DNA from: a virus
Virus record (IMG/VR): IMGVR_UViG_3300032278_000096
Coordinates: 1 to 27,009 of that record
DNA: 27,009 nt
Direction: 5' to 3' (one strand)
Positions 1 through 27,009 of this stretch are shown piece by piece. Positions within the stretch are counted from its first letter, which is position 1; each line of letters begins with the position of its first letter. Made by a program: the position numbers and the translations under genes. The notes below the pieces were generated by a model. It worked only from the letters and a program-made list of their open reading frames with translations, was not told the origin of the DNA and searched no databases.

Positions 1-116
1 TTGATACTTGGCTAGATACTTGGCTTGATACTTGGGTTGATACATAGTTTTATACATGGGTTGATACTTGGGTTGATACTGGAGTTGATACTTGGATTGA
101 TACCTGAATTGATACC
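1..116. repeat. 12-bp tandem repeats, array 1 (window edge)
   Basis: This is a run of almost ten 12-bp direct repeats, each close to TTGATACTTGGG, in perfect register from base 1; the last unit is truncated after TTGATACC. The units here are more diverged than those of the second array, with variants such as TAGATACTTGGC and TTGATACATAGT. The array touches the left window edge and may continue beyond it. In T7, short direct repeats flank the terminal redundancy next to the last late genes, and the position here is equivalent. A role in concatemer processing or packaging is inferred from position only. Confidence 0.9.
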
Positions 117-154
117 AGTTGATATAAATAGACTACAAAGATAAGTATGAATAG

Positions 155-346
155 TTAATACTTGAGTAGATACTTGAGTTGATACTTGAGTTGATACTTG
201 AGTTGATACTTGAGTTGATACTTGGGTTGATACTTGGGTTGATACTTGGGTTGATACATGGGTTGATACATGAGTTGATACTTGGGTTGATATATGAGTT
301 GATACTTGAGTTGATATATGAGTTGATACTTGAGTTGATACTTATA
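155..346. repeat. 12-bp tandem repeats, array 2
   Basis: Sixteen consecutive 12-bp units with consensus TTGATACTTGAG or TTGATACTTGGG lie head to tail without any indel. Base changes concentrate at unit positions 7-8 (CT to CA or TA) and 11 (A or G). The first two units begin TTAATA and TAGATA and the last ends in ATA. A 38-bp non-repeat stretch (117-154) separates it from array 1. Because 12 is a multiple of three, the array is open in all three minus-strand frames and one plus-strand frame, which creates spurious repeat ORFs. The array lies downstream of the whole late operon, and the most likely role is structural (terminal repeat or packaging region). Confidence 0.92.
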
Positions 347-375
347 GTAATAGCTATAGGTTAACCGCTCTCTCA

Positions 376-392
376 CTAATACGGGTACTTAA
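376..392 (-). promoter_or_regulatory. Candidate phage RNA polymerase promoter (phiOR-like position)
   Basis: Read on the minus strand this 17-mer is TTAAGTACCCGTATTAG. It matches the sequence at 8564-8580 at 15 of 17 positions. It lies downstream of the last gene and about 30 bp before the 12-bp repeat array, pointing into the array. That is where T7 carries phiOR. The core resembles the Syn5 cyanophage promoter as I recall it (ATTGGGCACCCGTAA), sharing the ACCCGTA block. The 8-bp palindrome ACTTAAGT overlaps its upstream edge. The promoter assignment is inference from repetition, position and orientation. Confidence 0.5.
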
Positions 393-662
393 GTATTATT
401 GTTTATTGTTATTAAAAAAAAAATAGACTCTATCTCTCATGCACATGAAATAAAACAGCGAGTACAAAATAAAATGACTTGCTCCAATAAATATATTTCC
501 TACTGCAACGGATATATTATCCCTTGCTGTGTATATAGTGTAGATTTTTTTTTGCATGACGAGTTTATTTTCTCGCCGTGTGGGTGAGCGCGCCCACGAA
601 CGGGGGATTTCTGCCCGTTTCTGTACGTTAATACCCTTTCATATTTTTTTATTAAATATTAG
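393..662. other. Non-coding region between last gene and terminal repeats
   Basis: No credible gene is present. On the minus strand, reading away from the last gene, there are two adjacent GC-rich inverted repeats: a 6-bp stem at 599-604/614-619 and a 5-bp stem GTGGG/CCCAC at 580-584/593-597. An A9 tract (T9 on the plus strand) follows near 544-552. A T10 tract (plus-strand A run 414-423) comes right after a short weak stem at 424-434. That last combination could be a poor intrinsic terminator, but the stem has only about four strong pairs. The GC-rich block contrasts with its AT-rich surroundings. Confidence 0.6.
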
Positions 663-1013
663 CTAAGATTGTCGTATTTTAGCCACAGATTGTAGGCGGG
701 TAGCTATATCTGCTGCCCTAGTAGGCATGATTTTTACCCAACTAGAGGATTTCATTAAAACTCCTGCTGTGTGGTACTGTGGGGGGTCTAAATTTAAGGC
801 TGAGACCACCAACTCAAGTTCGGTTGGGTGCTTTTCACTCAGCAAAAACACAAGTTCCACTATAATACCCACAGCTTTGGGGTGAATTGAGGGATTTGTT
901 AGTAGTTTTTCAGCTTTTTTGCACAGTTTAGGGAAGTCTTTTTTAGCTTTTTCGTCCCATGCGGTTATTCGTGCTTTGGTGATTTCTCTACGAATCCCAC
1001 TAAATTTAGTCAT
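663..1013 (-). CDS. Hypothetical protein, last gene of the late region
   Basis: This encodes a 116-residue, lysine-rich and mostly helical-looking protein that I do not recognise. No signal peptide or membrane segment is evident; a hydrophobic stretch around residues 48-58 (VGIIVELVFLL) looks like a buried helix. The start is supported by a strong AGGAG ribosome site 6 nt upstream, directly after the stop of the 41-codon gene at 1023. It is the last gene before the terminal repeat region, the position of T7 gene 19.5 and its relatives, but no sequence similarity is claimed. Translation is well supported; the function is unknown. Confidence 0.8.
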   Translation of the reverse strand: MTKFSGIRREITKARITAWDEKAKKDFPKLCKKAEKLLTNPSIHPKAVGIIVELVFLLSEKHPTELELVVSALNLDPPQYHTAGVLMKSSSWVKIMPTRAADIATRLQSVAKIRQS

Positions 1014-1022
1014 GGTTTCTCC

Positions 1023-1148
1023 TTAACAGTTAGAGAAGCAATATACAGGTTTATATTCGGGGGACGTATAAACTACCCATAAGAAATAGATAGATATACA
1101 CGCTATGCATATTCCGATTATCAGTTCTCGTTTGTTGTAGTTCTTCAT
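1023..1148 (-). CDS. Small membrane protein, 41 aa
   Basis: The ORF starts with MKNYNKRELIIGICIACISI and contains one hydrophobic segment (about residues 9-26), preceded by basic residues and followed by a polar tail with two cysteines near the end. It could be a single-pass membrane or exported peptide. Its ATG overlaps the stop codon of the upstream 47-codon gene as ATGA, a normal sign of translational coupling. Its own stop is followed at once by the ribosome site of the next gene. The overlaps and placement support it as a real gene; its role is unknown. A contribution to lysis is possible because it follows the lysozyme, but that is inference. Confidence 0.6.
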   Translation of the reverse strand: MKNYNKRELIIGICIACISIYFLWVVYTSPEYKPVYCFSNC

Positions 1149-1288
1149 CTAGTTTTTCCACAGCATTTTTTTGGACGCCTTTTCCACCTTTTACCCCATG
1201 CCCAATTACTTATGATTACAGCGTACTTTTCAACAGTTTGTAAAAAGTAGTAGTAGGTGTTTCTCATAATATTATTAAGATGGGTCAT
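1145..1288 (-). CDS. Small basic protein, 47 aa
   Basis: The ORF begins MTHLNNIMRNTYYYFLQTVE and ends in a strongly basic tail rich in Lys, Arg and Trp with a CC pair. The start lies 1 nt after the lysozyme stop (TAATATG) and the stop overlaps the next start (ATGA), so the frame fills the gap between two well-supported genes exactly. A moderately hydrophobic central stretch (YAVIISNWAW) followed by basic residues fits a peripheral or single-pass membrane peptide. No family is recognised. A second in-frame ATG at codon 8 is a possible start. Confidence 0.55.
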   Translation of the reverse strand: MTHLNNIMRNTYYYFLQTVEKYAVIISNWAWGKRWKRRPKKCCGKTR

Positions 1289-1289
1289 A

Positions 1290-1862
1290 TTAGTGTACCT
1301 TATTTTGTACGCTTTTCATTAAGTCGCTCAATGTGGTTGCACGAGTGTTGGTTTGTCTTGCCCACTTACTATCTAACATTTCGTCTCCTGCTTTTTCATA
1401 CTCTCCGTTTTTTACAAACTCTAATGTCTTTTTAAATTTTGATGTTCCATCTACTCCCATTTGATACGCCATTTCGACTAATATACCAAATGCGATAGGG
1501 TGCGTCTTACTTTCGTCTACTAATTTTCTCGTGCCTGTTAATGCGATATTAAAATCTTTTTCAAACACATCTTCCCAATATGCTTTAGTATAATTGAATT
1601 GCTCCCCAGTAATATTTGGATTGTGTTCGCCTTCGTTTATTTTGTGTCCATAGCCGCCTGTTTTAAACGGTTCGTATATCGGTTCACCTTTATCAGTGTC
1701 ATAATCAAGATTATAAGGAAGCTTTCTATATCCTTCGTGTTTTTTAATACGGTCTTTAGTACGTTGATGTCCTTCTTCTGTACTGGCAAAAGGGTATTGT
1801 GTAATAACAATATCTGCAGTGCTCACATATTCTGTGTCTTCACCCATAATCGTTTTGACCAT
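1290..1862 (-). CDS. GH24 (T4-type) lysozyme, endolysin
   Basis: This is a muramidase of glycoside hydrolase family 24, which cuts the glycan strands of peptidoglycan during lysis. The family signature is visible: the catalytic Glu in KKHEGYR (E43), aspartates at 53-57 in the place of the catalytic Asp, and the Thr of KTGGYGH (T68). The C-terminal half carries the typical W-x-R-(x)-TRA pattern (SKWARQTNTRATTL). At 190 residues it is slightly longer than T4 lysozyme (164), with about 25 extra N-terminal residues. No signal peptide is visible, so a holin would be needed for release. A GGAAGG ribosome site lies 8 nt before the start. T7 instead uses an early amidase (gp3.5), so the late position behind the terminase is a difference from T7. 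Confidence 0.9.
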   Translation of the reverse strand: MVKTIMGEDTEYVSTADIVITQYPFASTEEGHQRTKDRIKKHEGYRKLPYNLDYDTDKGEPIYEPFKTGGYGHKINEGEHNPNITGEQFNYTKAYWEDVFEKDFNIALTGTRKLVDESKTHPIAFGILVEMAYQMGVDGTSKFKKTLEFVKNGEYEKAGDEMLDSKWARQTNTRATTLSDLMKSVQNKVH

Positions 1863-1874
1863 TTGTGCGCCTTC

Positions 1875-1952
1875 CTATTTAACTAGCCATGCCATTAAGG
1901 CTATGACTATTAGTATTATTATTAAAATTGTATTAAGTATAAATCCTTGCAT
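1875..1952 (-). CDS. Tiny transmembrane peptide, 25 aa
   Basis: This short ORF (MQGFILNTILIIILIVIALM, then AWLVK) is nearly all one hydrophobic helix with a C-terminal lysine. It fills the gap between terminase and lysozyme: its ATG lies 1 nt after the terminase stop, and its TAG is followed by the lysozyme ribosome site. No clear Shine-Dalgarno sequence precedes it, so it would depend on coupling to the terminase stop. The AT-rich sequence could yield such an ORF by chance, but the exact fit favours a real gene. The role is unknown; holin-like or lysis-regulator peptides have this form. Confidence 0.45.
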   Translation of the reverse strand: MQGFILNTILIIILIVIALMAWLVK

Positions 1953-1953
1953 A

Positions 1954-3606
1954 TTAATCGTTTATCCAACTGTCTCCCTCTAACGGGCGACCTATGGCGT
2001 TCTCCATAAAATTATCTAAGTCGTGTTGCAGTAAATCTTCTTTATGTTGATTGTACGCTAGGGTTTGGTCTCTGTCCATGCGTTCAACCCAGTAATTTGA
2101 ACAAATAGAAAGAGCGTCTATTTGGTCATCATGCCGTAACGCACCTTTGTCTCGTGTAATCCTAGTCATTTGTTTGAATAATTGGTGCTGTGGACTAAGA
2201 GTAAAATCTTCTTTAACGATACTTTCATCTACAACAAGACGGTGTGTATTCATTATAGGTTCTAAGGTATCAATAATACGCTTCTCTTTTTGGATATTAT
2301 GGCGGACTTCTTCAATGTCGCATGGGTGTATCTTTGCCATAACAGGTTTTAACAAGGCAGTTGCCATGCCATCACCGAAGTTTGATTCAATGACTACGTT
2401 ATTTACCTTCTGTTGTTTAGCAATGTCCGCTAATTGTGTTAAGGTTTTATCCGAGTATCCCCCATCAAGAGCACCAACTGCAGTTAGATATAAAATACCG
2501 TGAAGCATTTTAAGCACAGCATAAGCTGTTTTATCTTCTCCACGTCCTGCAGGGTCAATAGACATTGCCACGCCTTCAAATTTGGTAAATTCATCTGACA
2601 TGTATAGCGGGGAAGTGTAATAATCACCTTTTAATCCTACATTGGGTATTTCAGGGTCGAGTGCTTTAATTTGGTCTTGTCCCGAAGCCCATTGAATTTT
2701 CGCAGGAGCTTCGTCCCATGTGCTGCACCCTGATACTATAATTAAATCATTTAATCTGAGTGGGTATCTATTGGTATCTGACATGGTGGTGTCCAACATA
2801 AATTGCAAGTTGAACCCTGAACGCCCATAAGAGGATAGCCGCTCTAATAAGTCAATCTCATCAAATCTATCGGGGTCGGTTGGTTTATTCTCTTTATCTT
2901 TTGCTTTTACTTTAGCAATGAGTGAAGATAATTTGTCTCCATATCCAATACGTTGTTCACTTGTTGGGTAAAGTGCTGTCCATATTGTGGTGTGGAAACC
3001 CCTTTCATCTAAAGAGTTGTAAAGGGACATTTCAGTTTGTGGCGTTCCTAGAAAGATAATACGACCGACTTCAGGTTTAATAATAGCGTCAAATTCTTTT
3101 ACAGTTTCACTTAGGCGGTCTCGCATAAGTTGTGTTTGGGAGTTGTTCGCAGATTCTACGTCATCAGCAATAATTAAATCAGCACGGCTACCCGTTAATT
3201 GTCCCGTAATACCCATTGATTTTACAGAGGGAGAGTGGGACGCTTTTGCAGGAGCAACATCAAAACTTATTTTACTATGACGTTGGTTGTCTTTCGGTTG
3301 TAAATGCTGTAATAACGGCATTTCAGAAATAAGACGCTGTGTAAATGTGCTAAAGTCATCAGCACGGCTTTTACTAGCGGACACCACTAAGATATTTCGA
3401 TTAGGATTTAATAATAACTGGTGGCACACATAAGCAGAAGTAATCCAAGATTTTCCTACACCTCGAAAGGCTTGTATAACTAATCTTCGGTGTTTAGTTT
3501 GGAGATAATCGGCTATGTCATATTGGATTGGTGTCGGTTTTGGTAAGCCTAAATGTCTCCAACATAAATATAAGAAATTCTTAAAATCAATTAATCGTTT
3601 GTCCAT
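1954..3606 (-). CDS. terL: Terminase large subunit (DNA packaging ATPase/nuclease)
   Basis: This is the packaging motor, T7 gp19-like: it binds the portal, hydrolyses ATP to pump DNA into the prohead and cuts concatemers. The 550 residues carry Walker A AFRGVGKSW (46-54), Walker B LIIADDVE (144-151) and an RNase H-fold nuclease with D351 in SIDPAGRG, E407 in VVIESNFGDG and the HDDQIDAL motif (492-499). The length is close to T7 gp19 (586). The start overlaps the stop of the HNH gene by 1 nt (TAATG). The gene sits near the right genome end, as in T7, close to the repeat region where the enzyme should cut. Confidence 0.97.
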   Translation of the reverse strand: MDKRLIDFKNFLYLCWRHLGLPKPTPIQYDIADYLQTKHRRLVIQAFRGVGKSWITSAYVCHQLLLNPNRNILVVSASKSRADDFSTFTQRLISEMPLLQHLQPKDNQRHSKISFDVAPAKASHSPSVKSMGITGQLTGSRADLIIADDVESANNSQTQLMRDRLSETVKEFDAIIKPEVGRIIFLGTPQTEMSLYNSLDERGFHTTIWTALYPTSEQRIGYGDKLSSLIAKVKAKDKENKPTDPDRFDEIDLLERLSSYGRSGFNLQFMLDTTMSDTNRYPLRLNDLIIVSGCSTWDEAPAKIQWASGQDQIKALDPEIPNVGLKGDYYTSPLYMSDEFTKFEGVAMSIDPAGRGEDKTAYAVLKMLHGILYLTAVGALDGGYSDKTLTQLADIAKQQKVNNVVIESNFGDGMATALLKPVMAKIHPCDIEEVRHNIQKEKRIIDTLEPIMNTHRLVVDESIVKEDFTLSPQHQLFKQMTRITRDKGALRHDDQIDALSICSNYWVERMDRDQTLAYNQHKEDLLQHDLDNFMENAIGRPLEGDSWIND

Positions 3607-3833
3607 TAATGTTTGGCACGGTTATATCTTCGTAAAGTAACATGGAGATTTCGAGAACTGTTGTTACGAGGGTTTCCGTCTACATGGTGTACGTCTCGAT
3701 TATCACCTTTCGACACTCGTCCCGAACGTAATAGCTGTCGCCTTACTTTATTGCGGCTTGCTCTATCTTTTTTCGATTTCGTTGACGATTGGAATAAAAG
3801 ATATTCCCGTCTATAGTTTCGTTTTTTAACCAT
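3606..3833 (-). CDS. Small HNH-type endonuclease-like protein
   Basis: This 75-residue, very basic protein has an HNH-like core: DVHHVDGNPRNN around residues 47-58, then NLHVTLRRYNRAKH at the C-terminus. The His-His-x-Asp-Gly-Asn pattern and the final asparagine match the small HNH proteins common next to terminase genes in cyanophages and other marine phages. HNH proteins beside terminases are needed for packaging cleavage in some phages, which is a reasonable but unproven role here. It overlaps the preceding gene by 8 nt and the terminase start by 1 nt, so the three genes are probably co-translated. The cysteines of zinc-binding HNH types are absent. Confidence 0.78.
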   Translation of the reverse strand: MVKKRNYRREYLLFQSSTKSKKDRASRNKVRRQLLRSGRVSKGDNRDVHHVDGNPRNNSSRNLHVTLRRYNRAKH

Positions 3834-4071
3834 TTTCTTCCTCTATATTAAAAGGTAATGTTTCTAAGATTTCATGTGCTTTTTCCACTATGTTTTCTGA
3901 ACTATAGGTTTTACACACCTCTAAACACACTTTCATTTCTGAAGCAGTGAGTTTTCCACCTGATTTTAGTTTTTTATAAGCGTGGGACACCAATAAAACT
4001 GGTAATTCTTCAAGAATTTTTTCAATAGAAGTTTCTTTAGGGACGTTCTCTTTTTGAGTTTTTTCCTTCAT
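3826..4071 (-). CDS. Putative terminase small subunit (DNA maturase A)
   Basis: This 81-residue, charged and largely helical protein has a central SGGKLTASEMKVCLEVCKTY segment, similar in style to small terminases of T7-like marine phages, where a helical domain precedes the motif that presents DNA to the large subunit. T7 gp18 is 89 residues and lies just upstream of gp19; here only the HNH gene intervenes. The assignment rests on size, position and a weak pattern match, so it is tentative. The stop region overlaps the HNH start by 8 nt. The upstream 33-codon gene ends directly before its ATG. Confidence 0.5.
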   Translation of the reverse strand: MKEKTQKENVPKETSIEKILEELPVLLVSHAYKKLKSGGKLTASEMKVCLEVCKTYSSENIVEKAHEILETLPFNIEEENG

Positions 4072-4173
4072 TTAATACTTAGATTTTATTAACCATATTA
4101 TAGCAGCAATCACACAGCCCATAACAATGATTTGTAATAAACGGTAATCCATACCTGTATCTAATGGAGACAT
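4072..4173 (-). CDS. Small membrane protein, 33 aa
   Basis: The ORF starts MSPLDTGMDYRLLQIIVMGC and continues with a hydrophobic stretch to IIWLIKSKY, giving one transmembrane helix (about residues 13-29) with a basic C-terminus. It ends exactly 1 nt before the ATG of the next gene and begins 4 nt after the stop of the 45-codon gene, so it fills the gap. It has no recognisable family. Its setting between holin-like and packaging genes suggests a lysis accessory role, which is inference. Confidence 0.5.
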   Translation of the reverse strand: MSPLDTGMDYRLLQIIVMGCVIAAIIWLIKSKY

Positions 4174-4177
4174 TTAA

Positions 4178-4315
4178 TTAGCCTGCAAGACCTAAAACCC
4201 ATACAATAATACAGAGAGCAATAAACCAGAATAGCACTTTCTTATCAGGTACTATTGTGTTTGTCCAAAATGAGACAATCTTTTGTTTACACTCAACACA
4301 AAGCCATTTCAACAT
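4178..4315 (-). CDS. Small membrane protein with CxxC, 45 aa
   Basis: The ORF starts MLKWLCVECKQKIVSFWTNT and ends in a hydrophobic segment (about residues 27-45). The N-terminus has a C-V-E-C pair, and the C-terminal half is a single transmembrane helix. Its ATG overlaps the stop of the 36-codon gene by 1 nt as TAATG, the same arrangement used several times by confirmed genes in this window, which supports it as real. The function is unknown. The paired cysteines could bind metal or form a disulfide, but that is speculation. Confidence 0.55.
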   Translation of the reverse strand: MLKWLCVECKQKIVSFWTNTIVPDKKVLFWFIALCIIVWVLGLAG

Positions 4316-4425
4316 TACTTTTTTCCTTTCTTAATTTTGTTACCATACTTTTTTGACCATTGTTTAGCAACTTTTGGTTTAGTTTTATACATAGATTTAC
4401 GTTGTTTCACAGATTTAAAAGGCAT
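4315..4425 (-). CDS. Small basic phage protein (MPFKS-type), 36 aa
   Basis: The ORF begins MPFKSVKQRKSMYKTKPKVA and is about one third lysine, with a KQWSKKYG segment behind it. This matches a small conserved phage protein type (MPFKSxxQRxxMxxxxPxxAxxW) found in many phage and prophage genomes near lysis or packaging genes; its function is unknown. An AGGA ribosome site lies 6 nt before the ATG. The stop overlaps the start of the 45-codon gene (TAATG). The conserved pattern makes this the best supported of the very small genes here. Confidence 0.75.
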   Translation of the reverse strand: MPFKSVKQRKSMYKTKPKVAKQWSKKYGNKIKKGKK

Positions 4426-4433
4426 GAGGATTC

Positions 4434-4817
4434 CTATTTCTTTCCGTTTAATAAATTCATTGCGGGTTTCAACCCATAAATACTACCGAAGATTCCTACC
4501 AAAAGCCATTGGTATATCATAGGTAATTCTGAAAAGTAATGAAAATAAATATCTAACTTTTCTTTTGTAGTCTCATCACCAAAGAATACAGCATAAGCCA
4601 AAATAATGAGAGGTAAGGAAATTATAATAAGGACAAATTCGTCCTTCCAACTCGTATCTTGTTGATTTCCAACAACTTTTTTATATTCAAGTTCGCCAGT
4701 AGCCATACGTTCAGCATGGCGTCTTCCCGCAATAGCTTCAAATTGTTTAGTTTCTTGGTGAGTTTTGAAAACCTTAAAAGCTGTTTTAATTCCAAAACCT
4801 AATAAATTAAACCACAT
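4434..4817 (-). CDS. Putative holin (two- to three-segment membrane protein)
   Basis: This 127-residue protein has an amphipathic N-terminal region, then SWKDEFVLIIISLPLIILAY (about residues 56-75) as a first clear membrane segment and YQWLLVGIFGSIYGLKPAMN (about 102-121) as a second. The W-K-D-E-F entry motif and the spacing resemble the phage and gene-transfer-agent three-TM holin-like family. A holin would open the inner membrane to release the lysozyme encoded at 1290. Its position after the tail fibre block and before packaging matches T7 holin gene 17.5. The start overlaps the preceding gene by 11 nt. Confidence 0.65.
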   Translation of the reverse strand: MWFNLLGFGIKTAFKVFKTHQETKQFEAIAGRRHAERMATGELEYKKVVGNQQDTSWKDEFVLIIISLPLIILAYAVFFGDETTKEKLDIYFHYFSELPMIYQWLLVGIFGSIYGLKPAMNLLNGKK

Positions 4818-5121
4818 AGTTTGCGTCCCACTCTTTCTTTAGTTTTTTTGGATACAATGGTATAGGCGGAAGGGGTATCGTTTTAATTGTCGGTTCTTTT
4901 TTTAATGTCTCGTTCTTTTTCTTTAATACTGTTTCGCATTTAAAAGCCATAGTAACCTTGCGTTTTACAAATTCTTTATCTAATTTTAGTATGGACGCTT
5001 TTACATATTCCATACACTCTGCGGTATTCGGGAATAGATGAGGAATATCGGCATTAAAACATAAATTCTGTTGTAGTGAACCCATGCCCAAAAAACAAAT
5101 AAGGGCGGTTATTTTAAACAT
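4807..5121 (-). CDS. Putative exported protein of the lysis cluster
   Basis: This 104-residue protein begins with a signal-like hydrophobic stretch (MFKITALICFLGMGSLQQ) and then has cysteines at about 21, 36 and 62 and a basic, proline-rich tail (IPLPPIPLYPKK, about 82-93). The likely destination is the periplasm. Cys9 lies at a place where a lipobox could be, but the residue before it is Ile, so a lipoprotein is doubtful. A spanin-related role is imaginable from its place between two membrane proteins, but no spanin family similarity is seen. An AGGA ribosome site lies just before the ATG. Confidence 0.7.
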   Translation of the reverse strand: MFKITALICFLGMGSLQQNLCFNADIPHLFPNTAECMEYVKASILKLDKEFVKRKVTMAFKCETVLKKKNETLKKEPTIKTIPLPPIPLYPKKLKKEWDANYVV

Positions 5122-5701: not shown

Positions 5702-8524
5702 CTATGATATGTCAGCATTAGCTTCAACAGCAGGTGTCCCTGCATTAAGTAAGACTGCCATTTCTTGAGCAGTTGCACCACTAAATCCATCAAGACTAAA
5801 TGCTGTGCCAAGTGGATTAACTTCATGTCCTGATAAGGAACTTCCACTTCCTGTTTTTGAACAACAACCTAATTGAGCAACCACAGGTGAACTATCCAAT
5901 AACGTAATAGTTGGACTTGCTCTCATTTCTACTGGAAAGTTCCATGATAAATTACAAACTGTATCACTGAACCAATTACCACTTACTTCTGCACCTGTGC
6001 ATTGATGGTAATATCTTTTACATAATTGCAGTACATCTCCTTTTGGTAAATGTTCATAATCAGTTTTAGAACTTCCAATTTCAAATTGTATTCCTGTTAT
6101 ATAAAAATTATTCGCATCACTATCCATGCAATTTACTTGTCCTACAGCCGTGTTTGCATTAGTAACTGCAGCCCAAGATGTTGCAAGTGTACCTGAAGAA
6201 TAGGTTGTTCCTGCCATTAACCAAAAGCGTATTCCAAGTCCTGTTGCATTATTATTAGTTAAAGCAGCACTACCACTCGTATCACCTGCAAATGAAATTT
6301 CTTTTTGTTCCCATGTATCTGCAGAATCAACTGTATAAGATTTAGCAATATGGCGTGTTGAAGTATGTCCTCGTAATTCAACAATGTGTACACCTGTCTT
6401 TGGTGATTTAACCCAAAATGATATAGTTGTAGTATATGCACCACCTTCACCATAACGTAATTCTTGAGTTTCAAAACCTTCAAAACGTCTTTCAAGGAAA
6501 ATATAATCACCTGCAGATGGAGAAGCATCAGCAGTTGTTACATCACATTTTAATGCGTAGGAAAATTCATTTATGCCCGCAGCTGCGTCTTGTGATTGTG
6601 TAATTGTTCCAAAACTTGAACCTTGTGTATAAATTCTATCTACCGTATAAGTATCTGACGCAGTAATAGTTGTTTTAGAAGTATTTCGTTGGGCAACTTG
6701 CATATCACCGTTCCAAAATAAATTTCTTCTTGTTCTTCCTGCAGCTACTTCTGCCCATATTGGATTGGCACTCGTACCTTGGGTTTTAAGGAAATAACCT
6801 GAAGTTCCTGCAGCGAGTTCAGAAGGTACTCCACTTGCAGCATAATATTGTACTCCACCTTGAGTTCCATGAGCAGTCTTTGCGAGTGTTACTGCATTGT
6901 CAGCAATAGTTACAGCACCTGCATTTGTCATTGTGGTATCACCACTTAACGCAGCATTAGTAAATCCTGTACCATCACCTATTAAAATTTCTGTTGTTGC
7001 TAAAGCTATGTCAGAAGGCACACCACTTGAGTTTGCATTTCTAACTTTAACTGTATTCGCAGCCATATCTGCAACTGATACTGTAACTTTATCTGTTGCT
7101 CCGACAACTGTATCAATTCCATCTCCACCTTCTATATCTAATGTGTTGCCATTGGCTATTGTTTGGTTTGAACCGCTATCACCTGTTAGAGTAAAGTCGT
7201 TCATTGTACTTGAAGTAATAGAAATCCAACCTGAACCATTATAATATTTAACAACATTTGATGTAGAATTATAAACTAAATCACCTTCATCATTATCACT
7301 TGCAGGGTCAGAACTTGCTACTCTATATCTAGCAGCAAAACTATTTACTCCCGCAATATTGTCAGCACATGTGCTCATTGCTGTAACGTTCGCTGAAGTT
7401 CCTAAAGTATTCATATCTGTAACAACGTCAGCAGTACCGAGAGTATTCATATCAGTAACAACGTCAGCAGTTCCTAAAGTATTCATGTCGGTAACTACAT
7501 CAGCAGTAGCTAAAACGTTCATATCTGTGACTACATCAGCAGTACCCAATGTATTCATATCTGTGACTACATCAGCCGTGCCGAGAGTGTTCATATCAGC
7601 GACTACATCTGTAGTAGCGAGGATTGCCATATCAGCAACACAAGCGGACGTACCTAAGAGTCCCATATCTGTTACGGTATCTGCATTTCCTAAAAGTCCC
7701 ATAGCGGTGACATTTCCTGAAGTTGCAAGTGTATTCATATCACTGACTACATCTGCTGTACCGAGTGTGTTCATATCTGCTACGACATCAGCAGTTCCTA
7801 GTGTATTCATATCCGCCACAACATCTGCTGTACCTAATGTATTCATATCCGTCACAACATCAGAAGTAGCTAAAACGTTCATATCGGTAACAACATCTGA
7901 GGTAGCTAAAGTATTAAGGTCAGCAACAATATCTGAAGTGGCTAGAGTATTCATGTCACTCACAATATCGGCTGTTCCCACAATATTCATATCGGCAATA
8001 GCGTCCGTAGTTCCTAGTAAAGCTATTTCATCTGCGACATCAGCTAATAGATTAATATTAGCAATCGTAGCGGTACTTAAATATGTGCTTGTTAAATAAT
8101 TTTTTGTAACTGCGTCTTGTGCAGCAGTAGGGTCAGCTACACTTTTAATTCGTTTACTGTTAGCGTCCCAGTTAAAATCTGCTTTATCTAATGTAATTTT
8201 ATCGGCAGCGTCATCTACAGCTTCCTGTCCCATAAAGAACGCTTGGTTTGAATCCGTATCCAAATCATTTTCAGTTAAAACTGAACCTGATTCATAATCC
8301 ACTAACCGAGCGGCTTGACTTGTAGTTCTTCTTATTTCTATTTTGGTATCAGCAGCAGGAGCAGAAGTAAAAGTAAGGGTTGTCCCTGCGGCATTATAAG
8401 TAAAGGCAGTAGTCGCAACTCCGTCAATAGTCACAGTTATATCGGTTGTAGCACGATACGAAAATGGAATTGCGTAAGCATCTGTAGAACCGTTGCCTGT
8501 GTATCGAACAAAGCTATTTGCCAT
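5702..8524 (-). CDS. Tail fibre protein (T7 gp17-like N-terminus)
   Basis: This 940-residue protein forms the fibres that bind the host surface. Residues 1-150 match the virion-attachment domain of T7 gp17 (starts MANSFVRYTGNGSTDAYAIP, with TENDLDTDSNQAFFM further on). Residues 172-387 are eighteen 12-residue repeats. A linker domain (about 395-440, with LVYNSTSNVVKYYNGSGW) follows. The C-terminal region from about residue 600 (NGDMQVAQR ... CKRYYHQ) looks like a beta-sandwich receptor-binding domain common in marine phage fibres. T7 gp17 has 553 residues, so this fibre is much longer. AAGGAG lies before the ATG, and a candidate promoter lies about 40 bp upstream. The chaperone-like gene follows. 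Confidence 0.93.
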   Translation of the reverse strand: MANSFVRYTGNGSTDAYAIPFSYRATTDITVTIDGVATTAFTYNAAGTTLTFTSAPAADTKIEIRRTTSQAARLVDYESGSVLTENDLDTDSNQAFFMGQEAVDDAADKITLDKADFNWDANSKRIKSVADPTAAQDAVTKNYLTSTYLSTATIANINLLADVADEIALLGTTDAIADMNIVGTADIVSDMNTLATSDIVADLNTLATSDVVTDMNVLATSDVVTDMNTLGTADVVADMNTLGTADVVADMNTLGTADVVSDMNTLATSGNVTAMGLLGNADTVTDMGLLGTSACVADMAILATTDVVADMNTLGTADVVTDMNTLGTADVVTDMNVLATADVVTDMNTLGTADVVTDMNTLGTADVVTDMNTLGTSANVTAMSTCADNIAGVNSFAARYRVASSDPASDNDEGDLVYNSTSNVVKYYNGSGWISITSSTMNDFTLTGDSGSNQTIANGNTLDIEGGDGIDTVVGATDKVTVSVADMAANTVKVRNANSSGVPSDIALATTEILIGDGTGFTNAALSGDTTMTNAGAVTIADNAVTLAKTAHGTQGGVQYYAASGVPSELAAGTSGYFLKTQGTSANPIWAEVAAGRTRRNLFWNGDMQVAQRNTSKTTITASDTYTVDRIYTQGSSFGTITQSQDAAAGINEFSYALKCDVTTADASPSAGDYIFLERRFEGFETQELRYGEGGAYTTTISFWVKSPKTGVHIVELRGHTSTRHIAKSYTVDSADTWEQKEISFAGDTSGSAALTNNNATGLGIRFWLMAGTTYSSGTLATSWAAVTNANTAVGQVNCMDSDANNFYITGIQFEIGSSKTDYEHLPKGDVLQLCKRYYHQCTGAEVSGNWFSDTVCNLSWNFPVEMRASPTITLLDSSPVVAQLGCCSKTGSGSSLSGHEVNPLGTAFSLDGFSGATAQEMAVLLNAGTPAVEANADIS
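7364..8011 (-). repeat. Eighteen 12-codon repeats in the tail fibre gene
   Basis: The repeat unit is T-A-D-V-V-T-D-M-N-T-L-G with small variations (Ser for Ala; Ala or Ser for Thr at position 6; Ala for the final Gly). There are eighteen units in a row without any indel, residues 172-387. Four are degenerate (TSGNVTAMGLLG, NADTVTDMGLLG, TSACVADMAILA and the last, TSANVTAMSTCA). The coding DNA of identical peptide units differs at synonymous positions: the Leu codon appears as CTC, TTA, TTG and CTA. The conserved peptide suggests a regular shaft built of short repeats; the structure itself is inference. Confidence 0.95.
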
Positions 8525-8580: not shown

Positions 8581-11500
8581 TAAACTTGTCTACGGAAATG
8601 TTCATCAATTGACGTGCCTTTGTTCGTCCATTTCAGTTTAAATCCTTTTTTTCCGACTTTGCCTTCTTTTATGTGTTGGCGTTGTTCGGCTTCTAAGTTG
8701 AATAAGATGTTTTCCCGTTTAATCTCAGTTTCTTTCAGTATAGGAAATTCGCTTTCCATTTTCTTATAAGCAACTGTTTCAACATCATGTATTAATTTAA
8801 TAATTTCAGCTTGTTGGTAATCTTTGAAACTGTCAACAAGATTATCGGTATAACTGTGTAAAGGGCTTTCAGGGTCAGAGATATAAATTTCAATTAATTC
8901 TTTTAAATAGTAGGGCTTTCCTTTGTATTGTGTTGTCACATATTGTTTCAATTCAAGAAAACGGTCGTATGCTGTTTGTCCTTTTTTATTTCGCAGCGTC
9001 CTTAAATCAATCTGTGACTCTTTGTGCAGTTTATTCGGACGAGTGTACGCCCACTGCCGTGTTTGTTCATGCCTATTTTCTTCTTCAAAGAATTTCCAAG
9101 TCTCATCATTTTTCCAATTTGACATAGCGAAAGGTGACGACCAAATTCCTGTATCTCCGCCTATACCGAATAACCACCCTCGTTTTCGGTCTATTTTTAT
9201 ACCTAAAGCATTTCGTTTAGGCATAATTCTGTCTACATCAGTAAAAGGATTTAACACTCTTAGGCGGTCAGTCATATTCCATACTTCCCGTTCCCAACTA
9301 TCTTTTATTCGATTTTTATAACGTATGCCACTTGATAACGGAGTGATTTTATATATTCCTCTTGCCATTACAGAACCCGCAAAACGGTCAAAATCTCTAT
9401 TATATAAATATGAGTCTCCTGCAATCATTTCTGCACTTTCAATCATGCCTTTTGCATAAAATTTGGAACTAAAATTTCTTGTGAGTCCCATTAATATAGA
9501 AAACGAAATATCGGTTATACGGTCAGCGACAGGTTTAGGTAATTCTTCAGTATGTTTGAAGAAATCATCAAACGCTTCTACTAAATCAGCAGCTACAAAG
9601 AACGGAGTATTGAACGGGTCGCCACGTTCCATTTTTCTAAAGCTTCCACCTGTGACTCTTTCTTTTTCTCCTTCACCTTCGGTTGTCCACTGACTTTCAT
9701 CAGTTTGCATTGCATACGATTGCCAACCTGTGAATTTTGACCTTTCTTCATTTACTCTAAAATCTTTTGACCCACCGCCTGTGACTTTTCCAGTTACAGC
9801 CGCCCATATTGCTGTACCCCACAACGCCCACGCAGCAGATAAACGTGCTTTTGCTTCCATTGCAGCTTCTTGATTAAGGTACTTACCTGTTGCGTCATCT
9901 TTCATAAGCATGTGCCGCATTTGAAATTGATACTTCCCGAATATGGGGACATGTTGTAAATTCCACCTCATTAAGTTAGACGGTGTATTAATAAAATGGA
10001 GACCTAAAGCACGAAGGGCAGGTATTTTATTTGCCAAACCAAGAATCGCTCCCGTAACTCGTCCCTCAGTTTTACCTGTTTTAGGGTTAATGGCAAATGC
10101 TCCTTGTGTATACGTTACTTCACGGGCATAGTTCATAGCGTCATTAACAATGTTTCTATCAGCTTCCGTAAATCCTTCTCTATTCCATTTATGTTTTATA
10201 GGTTTAGGATACATTTCACCTGCAGTTTTTCCTGCTTTGCCTTTTATTTCATGTTTACCGACACGCCCAACAACGGATTCTTTTTCCATATACTTGTTAA
10301 AGTATTGGTCAAATAATTCTTTATATTGTCCTGTTTTTTTACTATACCGTCTTGGTATTGTATCCGACAATAAGTGAGGGTGTGTCCTCGCTATAGCGGA
10401 GTTAATTTGAGCTCCCGCTCTTGCTCTAAAAGCTACGGTCTTTAAAAATTCGTCTCCTGCAGATAAAACACGGATAGGTATAGTTTGTACAAACCCTGCG
10501 GCTGCTCCTATCTTTTCTCCGACTTTACCACCAAAATGTTTACCCATTAATTTTATCCATGCTTGTAATTGTCCCTGTCGTATAGAAGTATCCATTTTGT
10601 TATGTAAAGAATCTAAAAGAGGACGTCCTGCAACTAATGCTCTGCCTGCGGCACGCAAGCCTTCCATTGTATAAACATATTGATAAATTAATGTATCGAA
10701 CGCTTCACGGAGAACAACTCTTGCACGAGCGGAATCTTTTGGTGCTAAATGTGCAGCCCGAATCATCATCACCATAGGTTTCCAGTGCATTTGAAAAATA
10801 CTTGACACTAAATTCAACATGTGGGTATCGGGAGAAGACAGTAAGTTATTGTTAATATATTCTGAAGCTAAATTCCATTTATTTATCTGTCTTGTATCTT
10901 GTAAAGCCGCAATTACCTTATCATCAGTATCTAATTGTCCTACCATGTTCCAAAAATCTTTTATTTCATCTTCTGTGCCTTCCATAAGTATTTTTTTATA
11001 TTTTGGGTCTTCGGGTCTACCCTGCAATTTTGACGCTTTCAATCCTAGTTTTGCTTTTTCAGGGTCAGGTGAAGTTTTACCTAACACTAATGTTTGTGCA
11101 GTGACTCGTTTATGTTCGGACGTTATGTCAGCAAGGAGATTTAGTTCCCCTCTACGTTCTTCTAGTGTTGCGAGCACTTTTGCCATTTTGTTTTTTGAGA
11201 TAGTTTCCCAATTTGTCATGTGTGCTAATTTATAAATATGGTCAGCGTTCTTAACTAACATGTCATTTAAAGCGAGCACTGTTGCAGCGTATTCTCCACC
11301 ACGCCCATTTTTAATATAGTTCATGGCGTCCCGATAAACTTTTTCAGGGTCTTGTCCCAGTTTAGACGCCATTTGCCGAATTTTTTCTTCAGTTAAAATA
11401 TTCCATTTTGATTTAAGTTTTGGGCGGATTTGGTCGCTTAATAGTTTTATAACCTGAATTGCTTCTTTATGTTTTTGCCCTTTTCTTGATAAACGCCAAA

Positions 11501-12755: not shown

Positions 12756-15230
12756 TTAACGTCCACTCCTTCCCCCACGCTTGGCGGGAAGATTCTTTTT
12801 CAATAATTTAAGAAATTGTAATATATTCGCAGGTGTGGCAACTCCCGTATCATCTGCGAAGCCAAACATTGCTGCTGCGTTCGCAAGCATATCTATTACG
12901 GGTTGATTCTCAGGAGTCGGTGCTGCAACGATAGCGTCTAAAGCTGTTATTGTTCCTCTTGCAGCGTCCCCTAATCCGCTAATCACATCATCTGCCGCAT
13001 TATCTAATGCTTGATTAATTTTCGCTTGATTAGTCATTGTTTGTCGCCCAACTTTTTTTGTTGTTAATGCAGGAACAGGAACTTTCGATACTGTACTTAA
13101 TACATTTCTAACAGCAGGGGTTAGACCAAGACTATGATAATCAAGTACGTCAGGAGCAGGTATATCCTGTTGGGTGTTATCCCCTGTGTCCATTATAGTT
13201 TTGGCTTCCACAACGTCCCCTGTAAATTCGGCTTGATTCTCAATGCGTTCTAATTCTTCTAGTCTATTTAGTTCTTGAATAATATTACCCAATCTTATTC
13301 TGTCTTCAGGTGAAAGTCCATCTAAGGTACCTTGACCTGTGCCTTTGTAATATGCTCCCTTAAAGGGAATAAGATTTTCTTTGTTATTTTCTATTTCTTC
13401 AGCTGATACGACTTCTTGACCTAAGCCTGCTTCTCTCATCAGTTCCTCACGCCTTGTCAACATCTTGTTATAAACATCTGCTTTTTGGGTGTCAGGCACA
13501 TTGTACAAATCACCACTGAGAGCAAGACGGTCAATATCAACAACAGTTGGTTGCTGTCCACCTTCGAGAATAAAATGTTTTCGTGGGATATAATCTCTTG
13601 CCCACTGACCCCACTGAGAATTAATGTCTCCACCTTTGCCTACTATTCCAAACCACTCTTGTGCTAATTCCTTATAATACATTAGTTTTGACTTCCTGTT
13701 ATCTTTCCGCCCTTCGACTTTCACCCATGTTTCGTACTCCAACATACGGTAAGTCATAAACCTATTGAAACTCGTTTCAGCCGCACTTTGTATATAAGTT
13801 GCATAGTCACCCCTGTCTAAAGGACTAAGCTGAGAGTCTTTTCTTATCTGATTCCAAACTAGACCTACCTGTCCTTTTATATCTTCATAAGAAAGAGCTT
13901 TTGCTGAGTTAAAACTTGAATCGTCATTAAAAGGTGAACCACCATGTTTGTCGAACTCTTGTATCATGTTCCATGCTCGTGTATAATCCGTTATATTATA
14001 GTTGTTGTCTAAAAAGTATTGTAGTAATCCGTCAGGGTCAGCACTGAATCTACCGTCCGTTATGTGTTGCCAAATCTCGTCATCATCTAAAGCGACAGTA
14101 TTTTCTTGTGCACTTAGTTTTCGGAAATCAGAAATTAAATAACCATAGCCCTTTTCCCTATATTCAACATATAATGCGTCTAGTTTTTCCTCACGTTCTT
14201 TGCCCGCTTCGGTCGTTGCGTATATTTCTATAAGGGCATTTGTACCTGTTTTTACGGCTTGTTTCATTTCATAGTCTTCGTTAGTGCGTGCTCTAGTTAT
14301 TAATTGTTGTTTTTTTGTTTTTAATTGCTCAAAAAGCGTTGTAACGACTCCATCTGCGTCTCCGCCATATTGTTGTAATAAACTTTTGCGGAAAGTTCCG
14401 TCCTCACCTACTCCTCTGTTTCCTATTAACATTTCTATTGCTATGTCAATCTCGGCTTCCGTTTCTGCTCCTGCACCAATTTGTTGTGCCGTCCTAAGTA
14501 AAATATCTTTTTTATCTTGGTTTGAAATAAAAGAATCAGGTTCACCATACTGATTTAGAAACTCAGGATTAGAATTTTCTAATATTGCATTGATTTCTGC
14601 TGCAGTTGTTACTTCTTTACGAGCGATTTGTGACATCAATAATGCGGATATGTTGGACATTTTTTTGTTATGCGCTGTCTTTCCTCTAAATATAGCGTCC
14701 GCTAATTTTTCTTTTTCAAACCACGGGTTAAATTCGGTAGCAAATCCTTTTGATTCCGCAGAAGACATTGTAGAAAAATCAGGTAAGTATCCACTTTGAG
14801 AAACAAATTCTTCAAAGGATTGCGATTCCCAATTACCTTGTTGGTATTCTATCTTTGCTTTTTCTAAACCATTAATAGCGTCCGTAGCCCGAAAACGTCC
14901 GTCCATACCATCTATGGCAGATTTGGCATACATACTTTCTAATTCAGGGTGTTGTCCACTCATAATTTCTTGGTGTATGTTATCAGCAGATTTTCCTGAC
15001 ATACGCAGTTGGTTTAATTTAATTGTTGCAGTTTCGGACACGTCACTGATATAGTTTTTAGTATAGGCTTCCATAAATGGAGTAGCTTCAGTTTTTAGAG
15101 CGTTCGCCAAATCACCTGCAGGAGTTCGTGTAGGAACTGCGGGTTGACCACCATAAGTAACCCCGCTATATTTTCGACTTACTTGAGAACGATAACGTGC
15201 GTCCCCATAATCTTTTTTAATAATCGGCAT
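12756..15230 (-). CDS. Internal virion protein C (T7 gp15-like)
   Basis: This 824-residue protein is mainly helical and has no signal peptide or membrane segment, as in T7 gp15 (747), which forms the periplasmic tube of the ejection channel with gp16. The assignment relies on size, helical composition and conserved gene order between the gp14-like and gp16-like genes. The N-terminus (MPIIKKDYGDARYRSQ) is basic. The C-terminal 130 residues contain hydrophobic Ala/Val-rich stretches and end in a basic tail. The ATG overlaps the stop of the gp14-like gene by 1 nt (TAATG) and its stop lies 3 nt before the gp16-like start. Confidence 0.82.
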   Translation of the reverse strand: MPIIKKDYGDARYRSQVSRKYSGVTYGGQPAVPTRTPAGDLANALKTEATPFMEAYTKNYISDVSETATIKLNQLRMSGKSADNIHQEIMSGQHPELESMYAKSAIDGMDGRFRATDAINGLEKAKIEYQQGNWESQSFEEFVSQSGYLPDFSTMSSAESKGFATEFNPWFEKEKLADAIFRGKTAHNKKMSNISALLMSQIARKEVTTAAEINAILENSNPEFLNQYGEPDSFISNQDKKDILLRTAQQIGAGAETEAEIDIAIEMLIGNRGVGEDGTFRKSLLQQYGGDADGVVTTLFEQLKTKKQQLITRARTNEDYEMKQAVKTGTNALIEIYATTEAGKEREEKLDALYVEYREKGYGYLISDFRKLSAQENTVALDDDEIWQHITDGRFSADPDGLLQYFLDNNYNITDYTRAWNMIQEFDKHGGSPFNDDSSFNSAKALSYEDIKGQVGLVWNQIRKDSQLSPLDRGDYATYIQSAAETSFNRFMTYRMLEYETWVKVEGRKDNRKSKLMYYKELAQEWFGIVGKGGDINSQWGQWARDYIPRKHFILEGGQQPTVVDIDRLALSGDLYNVPDTQKADVYNKMLTRREELMREAGLGQEVVSAEEIENNKENLIPFKGAYYKGTGQGTLDGLSPEDRIRLGNIIQELNRLEELERIENQAEFTGDVVEAKTIMDTGDNTQQDIPAPDVLDYHSLGLTPAVRNVLSTVSKVPVPALTTKKVGRQTMTNQAKINQALDNAADDVISGLGDAARGTITALDAIVAAPTPENQPVIDMLANAAAMFGFADDTGVATPANILQFLKLLKKNLPAKRGGRSGR

Positions 15231-26148: not shown

Positions 26149-27009
26149 TGTGTCTCACTCCAATTCTCCCCAACTTTATAGCCACCAGTTAATGGTAGAC
26201 GTAAGTTAAAATGTTCCCCTGATTTTGTAATCGCCTGTACAGCAAGTTCCCCAATATCGTTAGCGTCTTTTTCTTCACACTCAATTTGAATCTCATCATG
26301 CACCCATACCACTTGTTGTGCGTTTAAATACTTTCTTGTTAATTTATCAAATTCTACAAGCCATTGTTTACACACTAATGCTCCACTAGATTGTAAAAGC
26401 GTATTTAACGCAGCGTGGACAGAACGGACTTTAATGTGTCTTTTATCTAACCCCACCAAATAGCCACGTTCTGCCACACTTTGAACCTGCAAAAGTAATT
26501 TATTTAATGCAGGTAAATTATTTAAAAAACGAGTCTTAATCCGTTTAGCATCAATATAACTTTTTCCTGTAACGAACGCAATCTTCTTAATCCCGCCACC
26601 ATATAAAAAACAATAGTAAAAACGTTTCGCAACATCACGAGATTCTAAACCTGCCATCTTTCGTGTAGCTTCGTGAATATCCCCGTCCAATACAATTTTA
26701 GCATATTCGCCTTCATCAAAGCGGGACAAGAAGTGGGCAAGCATACGCACCTCTAATCCCGCAACGTCTATCCCCACAAGTTTCTTTCCTTTTGGAACTG
26801 TGAATAATTCCCGACACTCTTTACCATAAGGAACAGCAACACTAGGGACTTGCCCTAAATTTGGGAACGAGTGTGAAGCACGAGCAGTTACCGTTGAATT
26901 AGTATTACAATTATGATGTATCTTTCCGTGTAATTCCATTTTTAACCACGCACATTTTCCTGTTGCTAATTGAGCAAGTCTTTTTTCAAGTAGAAAATGT
27001 TTACATAGG
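26145..27009 (-). CDS. DNA polymerase I family (T7 gp5-like), C-terminal part, cut at window edge
   Basis: The reading frame is open through the right edge, so this is the C-terminal 288 residues of a longer replicative polymerase. An internal ATG at 26939 is not the start, because conserved sequence (QLATGKCAWLK, T7-like) continues upstream of it. Motif A is GIDVAGLEVRMLAHFL (catalytic Asp at 26766-26768), motif B is RDVAKRFYYCFLYGGG, and motif C is WVHDEIQIE (catalytic Asp at 26295-26297). The motif B tyrosine equivalent to T7 Tyr526 is present. HAALNTLLQSSGALVCK also matches T7 closely. The stop overlaps the nuclease-like gene start. Confidence 0.97.
   Translation of the reverse strand, partial: LCKHFLLEKRLAQLATGKCAWLKMELHGKIHHNCNTNSTVTARASHSFPNLGQVPSVAVPYGKECRELFTVPKGKKLVGIDVAGLEVRMLAHFLSRFDEGEYAKIVLDGDIHEATRKMAGLESRDVAKRFYYCFLYGGGIKKIAFVTGKSYIDAKRIKTRFLNNLPALNKLLLQVQSVAERGYLVGLDKRHIKVRSVHAALNTLLQSSGALVCKQWLVEFDKLTRKYLNAQQVVWVHDEIQIECEEKDANDIGELAVQAITKSGEHFNLRLPLTGGYKVGENWSETH

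Follow-up and report, generated by a model that had tools for sequence, protein, structure and literature searches.

A 12-bp repeat array of at least 38 units beside the predicted packaging cut of a Pelagivirus-type phage

Gene content of the locus and extent of the array

The DNA analyzed here (the window, 27,009 bp) is one whole IMG/VR record. Its main genes all lie on the minus strand and encode a T7-type large terminase (1954..3606), lysozyme, tail, head and connector proteins, a 5'-3' exonuclease and the C-terminal part of a family A DNA polymerase. The terminase is approximately 83% identical to that of HTVC109P, and identities to HTVC109P and HTVC019P, both Pelagibacter phages of the genus Pelagivirus, range from 77 to 83%. 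A lysozyme-like gene occupies 1290..1862, and the last late ORF, encoding 116 aa with no family match, occupies 663..1013 (both on the minus strand). The G+C content of the window is 35-39%. Its tail-fibre gene (5702-8524) holds 36-bp (12-codon) tandem repeats at 7397-7969, and similar repeats of 30-36 bp were present in contigs of several relatives.

Positions 1-346 carry 26 units of 12 bp each, reading TTGATACTTGRG on the plus strand. With at most four mismatches to TTGATACTTGAG allowed, units were fitted at 1-120 and 155-346. TRF returned a period of 12 with 28.8 copies at 1-343, and the self-match at lag 12 reached 0.78, whereas in 2000 Markov simulations no lag from 5 to 30 exceeded 0.42. 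The 26-unit array claimed by an earlier sequence-only reading of this DNA was thus confirmed by unit fit, TRF and simulation. Block 1 (1..120) comprises ten units of the TTGATACTTGGG type, which become degenerate towards an interruption at 121..154; block 2 (155..346) comprises sixteen units of the TTGATACTTGAG type, with the sense unit GTATCAACTCAA. The sense unit of the array is also written GTATCAACYCAA. The interruption breaks the 12-bp register and closes two of the three sense frames by stop codons. It had been described as 38 bp long, a value obtained if the degenerate last unit is trimmed, but 34 bp lie between the fitted units. Likewise, the register described as perfect is exact within each block but is lost across the interruption, where the unit starts at 109 and 155 are 46 bp apart (10 modulo 12).

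A pattern scan of IMG/VR identified a second record, IMGVR_UViG_3300032278_000300 (L103; 13,753 bp), that terminates in 12 units of the same array. Block 1 continues there, at L103 13607-13753, so the array is indeed cut by the window edge, as had been noted. L103 1-115 matches window 26895-27009 with 100% identity over 115 bp, inside the DNA polymerase gene. Because of this identical overlap, the two records are fragments of one phage of about 40.6 kb. The sole gap in the joined map lies inside the array, where the ends of the window and of L103 share no exact overlap of at least 10 bases. With 26 units in the window and 12 in L103, the array thus comprises at least 38 units (about 480 bp). 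The same scan returned a record (L009) identical to window 121-1483 over 1363 bp.

L103 encodes a helicase-primase, endonuclease I, a ssDNA-binding protein, an RNA polymerase, a tyrosine integrase and an ArdC-like anti-restriction protein (10213-11190, among the early genes), and its array end adjoins early genes. A 22-bp direct repeat, TGACAAGATTAAGGTCTTTTCC, stands directly next to the array on its early side, at L103 13554-13595; about 1.9 kb further in, near L103 11609, there is a related copy. The T7-type terminase, family A DNA polymerase, single-subunit RNA polymerase and Pelagivirus gene order place the phage in Autographiviridae/Pelagivirus. The window is most of a Pelagivirus-type autographivirus genome.

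Variation within the array is limited to a few unit positions, as the earlier reading had observed. Across window and L103, positions 1, 4, 5 and 6 are invariant in 38/38 units (P=0.00015 when calculated on distinct unit types), and most changes fall at positions 8, 11 and 12. The accompanying argument that such a step would keep a binding site on one face of the helix does not stand. At 10.5 bp per turn, 12 bp correspond to 1.14 turns; each site is thus rotated by about +51 degrees from the previous one, and the series winds around the helix.

The predicted packaging cut and the left end of the genome

The first and last 162 bp of the HTVC019P record are identical, forming an exact terminal repeat, and an IMG/VR record of 40,166 bp (G003) also has an exact terminal repeat of 162 bp. 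The right edges of both repeats fall within 4 nt of TCTGTTTTTTT. Among contig 3' ends of relatives falling in an interval of about 400 bp, 8/38 mapped within 3 nt upstream of the [A/G] that precedes TCT, which is what genuine DNA ends at this point would produce. T7 and SP6 carry ATCTGTT at the position equivalent to this pelagiphage motif. The comparison defines a packaging-cut motif in pelagiphages.

In the window, the counterpart is GTCTATTTTTTTTTT (414..428, minus strand), which corresponds to GTCTGTTTTTTT in relatives and to ATCTGTT in T7 and SP6; the motif reads GTCTATT here, versus GTCTGTT, a difference that speaks against the proposed placement. By homology, the terminal-repeat right edge and packaging cut are predicted directly before [A/G]TCT[G/A]TTTTTTT, at about window 428/429, where GAGAGATAGA adjoins GTCTATTTTTTTTTT. 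The predicted direct terminal repeat extends over 429..630 (minus strand, about 202 bp), with both edges placed by homology. It is bordered by a conserved left-edge motif, AATATTTAATAAAAAAATATGAAAGGGTAT (631..660, minus strand), in which AAAAAAATATGAAAGGGTAT ends at window 631/630. Between cut site and array lies a conserved box, AAGTACCCGTATTAG (376..390, minus strand), which relatives carry as AAGGTACCCGTATAAG or AAAGTACCCGTATTAG just ahead of their own 12-bp arrays. Inverted copies of a box (TATCTTATACGGGTACC, AAGGTACCCGTATAAGATA) flank the predicted terminal repeat in relatives (L037 7930-7950 and 8267-8290; Eistla L093 is alike), and the window seems to retain only the downstream copy.

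The first GTATC of the array lies 87 bp past the predicted cut, on the early-gene side. It follows that the mature genome carries the array at its left end, not at its right. The earlier description of the array as lying just beyond the last late gene is correct on the assembled or concatemer map only; a predicted genome end separates that gene from the array. In the mature linear genome, the array is predicted to lie about 290 bp from the left terminus. P-SSP7 offers a precedent: experiments there corrected a misplacement of this kind, in that 728 bp believed to follow the last ORF actually precede the first one (PMC3350473).

The short-repeat arrays of T7 are named SRL (short repeats left) and SRR. 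Homology to HTVC019P and G003, together with L103, puts the array just inside the right edge of the left terminal repeat and before the early genes. We therefore regard it as very probable that the array occupies the SRL position of T7. The earlier likening to the T7 short repeats beside the terminal redundancy is upheld by the 87-bp distance and by arrays at the same place in relatives. Neither of the two findings named there as refuting was obtained: the terminus predicted by homology lies close to the array, and relatives do have arrays.

Arrays in related phages

Periodicity was assayed in the 480 bp after the cut motif of 39 nonredundant Pelagivirus-type relatives. A significant 8-13-bp periodicity was detected in 26 of them and in none of 117 random control segments taken from the same contigs; about one third of the 39 post-cut regions had no significant array. 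The relatives' arrays are short, with a step of 10-13 bp. Arrays at the corresponding site in close relatives, anticipated by the sequence-only reading, are therefore present. Two types are common: a cut-proximal one of the CACAG/ACACATAGC type (10-12 bp), and another that follows the box AAGGTACCCGTATAAG. The window has the box and the second type only, with no CACAG/ACACA array.

The shared core was sought with the window left out. GTATC was the top-ranking 5-mer at an exact 12-bp recurrence in post-cut regions (17 lineages), and 24 such pairs were counted in 27 kb of post-cut sequence versus 0 in 402 kb elsewhere. The aligned GTATC units of relatives read GTATCTCTTWAA, in which the five leading positions are fixed by construction, the sixth is nearly fixed and the others vary. 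As in the HTVC019P-type arrays, GTATC recurs every 12 bp in the window, within about 300 bp downstream of [A/G]TCTGTTTTTTT. Since its sense unit GTATCAACTCAA holds the GTATC core, the array is taken to be the same element as that of the relatives, in expanded form.

The HTVC019P-type array (GTATCTCTTTAA, 2-3 copies) and the window array share their site, the 12-bp step and the GTATC core. They differ in spacer, which is TCTCTTA-like in the former and AACTCAA in the window, and in copy number, 2-6 among relatives versus at least 38. Most relatives also have a second, CACAG/ACACA array (10-12 bp) between the cut and the GTATC array, which the window lacks. The six copies belong to L160, where nearly perfect GTATCTCTCTGG units stand at the corresponding site. 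L160 6361-6730 contains two expanded 12-bp arrays, GCACAGGCCAAC in 6.7 copies near the cut and GTATCTCTCTGG in 6 copies further on; expansion thus occurs in the cut-proximal array too. AC dinucleotide runs aside, the next largest array in the survey has 6.7 copies, a figure biased downward because long arrays break assemblies.

No array was detectable in P-SSP7, LUZ100, phiKMV or gh-1, all with known terminal repeats, and that of T3 was weak. Hence, this packaging mode can do without the element. Pelagiphages are among the sea's most abundant phages, and many of them have an array with a GTATC core and a 12-bp step beside the cut.

Possible function, alternatives and comparison with T7 and SP6

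The general account of T7 concatemer processing, which is broader than the papers cited here, forms the background to the proposed function. The process has been described for T7 (PMC3350473, PMC3276506), and completion of the left repeat is still not fully understood in T7-like phages (PMC3350473). Our literature search, limited for T7 to open-access papers, turned up no study of what the short-repeat arrays next to the cut do.

If the concatemer is cut at the right-hand edge of its single terminal repeat, the array-side fragment would lack a terminal repeat, which would have to be re-made. The array is the first unique feature of this fragment; therefore, a protein array formed there could mark, hold or protect the incomplete left end. 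Each 12-bp unit would be a putative protein-binding site, and the array would load its putative binding protein beside the concatemer junction. The bound array might also pause the phage RNA polymerase and transcription at the junction, or recruit the terminase or the replication complex. Its high copy number would have arisen by slippage or unequal recombination from an ancestral element of 2-3 units. A role in terminase pausing or concatemer processing, which the sequence-only reading had put forward, is possible. In our interpretation, the greatly expanded SRL-class array probably provides binding sites for a protein, which serve in processing the concatemer and completing the left end. Its position, homologous placement, core and copy number are supported by sequence evidence. 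Taken whole and with function included, the explanation as an SRL-class left-end array of at least 38 units with a role in concatemer processing and left-end completion appears to us evenly balanced between right and wrong.

The strongest rival is neutral expansion, in which a noncoding element of 2-3 copies grew by slippage or concatemer recombination and the extra copies are idle. The block middles are uniform and the edges degenerate, as unselected slippage would also give; moreover, copy number among relatives ranges from 2 to at least 38, period and sequence differ between lineages, and several related phages have no array. However, arrays are confined to one site (0/117 control segments), the GTATC core and the 12-bp step have been kept in 17 diverged lineages while spacers vary, and four unit positions are invariant (P=0.00015). 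On this evidence, we consider neutral expansion a serious possibility, but not a probable one.

The array could also be an operator or another transcription-control array for early promoters, with a repressor or host protein bound to the GTATC repeats and acting on lysis/lysogeny or on host RNA polymerase loading. In L103, the early genes follow immediately downstream of it, and the integrase gene of the phage makes a lysogeny regulator plausible. Nevertheless, the 40.6 kb contain no further occurrence of the motif as a regulatory site (outside the array, two one-mismatch matches were found in the window and none in L103). Arrays also keep to the edge of the terminal repeat, and equivalents exist in T7 and SP6, which are strictly lytic. 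A sigma-70 scan of the early side gave no excess over shuffles. We judge transcription control unlikely. A phiOL-like phage promoter at ACTATG^GTATC was considered as well and is not supported: the motif occurs once in HTVC019P and is absent from the genome of the window phage.

Translation of the array (12 bp being four codons) is highly improbable. All three sense frames are open within block 2 and the L103 array, and an open frame from the latter runs into the first early ORF. In HTVC019P (KC465901, L185), the first annotated gene, a CDS at 376-618 (80 aa), begins inside the GTATC array. Against translation, two of the three frames in the window are stopped by the interruption, while the remaining one meets a stop in block 1 and lacks an ATG, GTG or TTG start ahead of it; furthermore, frame, start codon and ORF length are inconsistent among relatives. 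Since start and frame are not kept, the HTVC019P ORF may be spurious. Least credible is an integrase arm-site array or attachment region: L103 does carry a tyrosine integrase gene (6545-7372), but about 6.2 kb from the array (13607-13753), arrays also exist in the integrase-less T7 and SP6, and a tRNA/attP search found no tRNA genes in window or L103. An RNA element was rejected, the sense strand showing no excess structure (z -0.40), the antisense strand being weakly structured (z -1.75) and no Rfam match being found.

Returning to protein-binding sites at the left end, we tentatively consider a further reading, itself rather doubtful, in which GTATC-N7 arrays are a dedicated Pelagivirus-type cis-element. 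A dedicated phage or host protein would organise the incomplete left end on it, forming here a filament over at least 38 sites. If so, the array of the window phage would be a natural high-copy version of the unexplained SRL of T7. So extreme a natural expansion could serve as bait for the putative binding protein.

Like the SRL of T7, the window array is noncoding and lies just inside the left terminal repeat, after the junction motif and before the early promoters. The steps are alike as well, 12 bp in the window and 12-13 bp in T7 (a 13-bp array after ATCTGTT). The sequence-only reading had set the 12-bp unit against a 7-bp unit in T7; this contrast falls away, since the 7-bp motif of T7 recurs every 12-13 bp and the SP6 unit is 12 bp. 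The motif, however, is CCTAAAG in T7 and GTATC in the window phage, and T7 has about a dozen imperfect copies versus at least 38. Since the unit is TTGATACTTGRG and not CCTAAAG, the array has the SRL position but is no sequence homologue of the T7 repeat. T7 also has right-side copies (SRR), whereas in the window the stretch from the last genes to the predicted terminal repeat is free of them, and TRF detected no SRR-type counterpart at 347-4880. The left-end repeats of SP6 (CCTTAGTAGCTT type) resemble the window array in their 12-bp step and in beginning tens of bp after ATCTGTT, at position 174 in SP6, but they have another unit sequence and fewer, more diverged copies. Altogether, arrays beside the terminal repeat are already known from T7, and our comparison shows their step to be 12-13 bp in T7 and SP6; as far as the literature searched shows, the Pelagivirus-type GTATC-12 element, the shared cut motif, which contig ends support, and an array expanded to 38 units or more are new.
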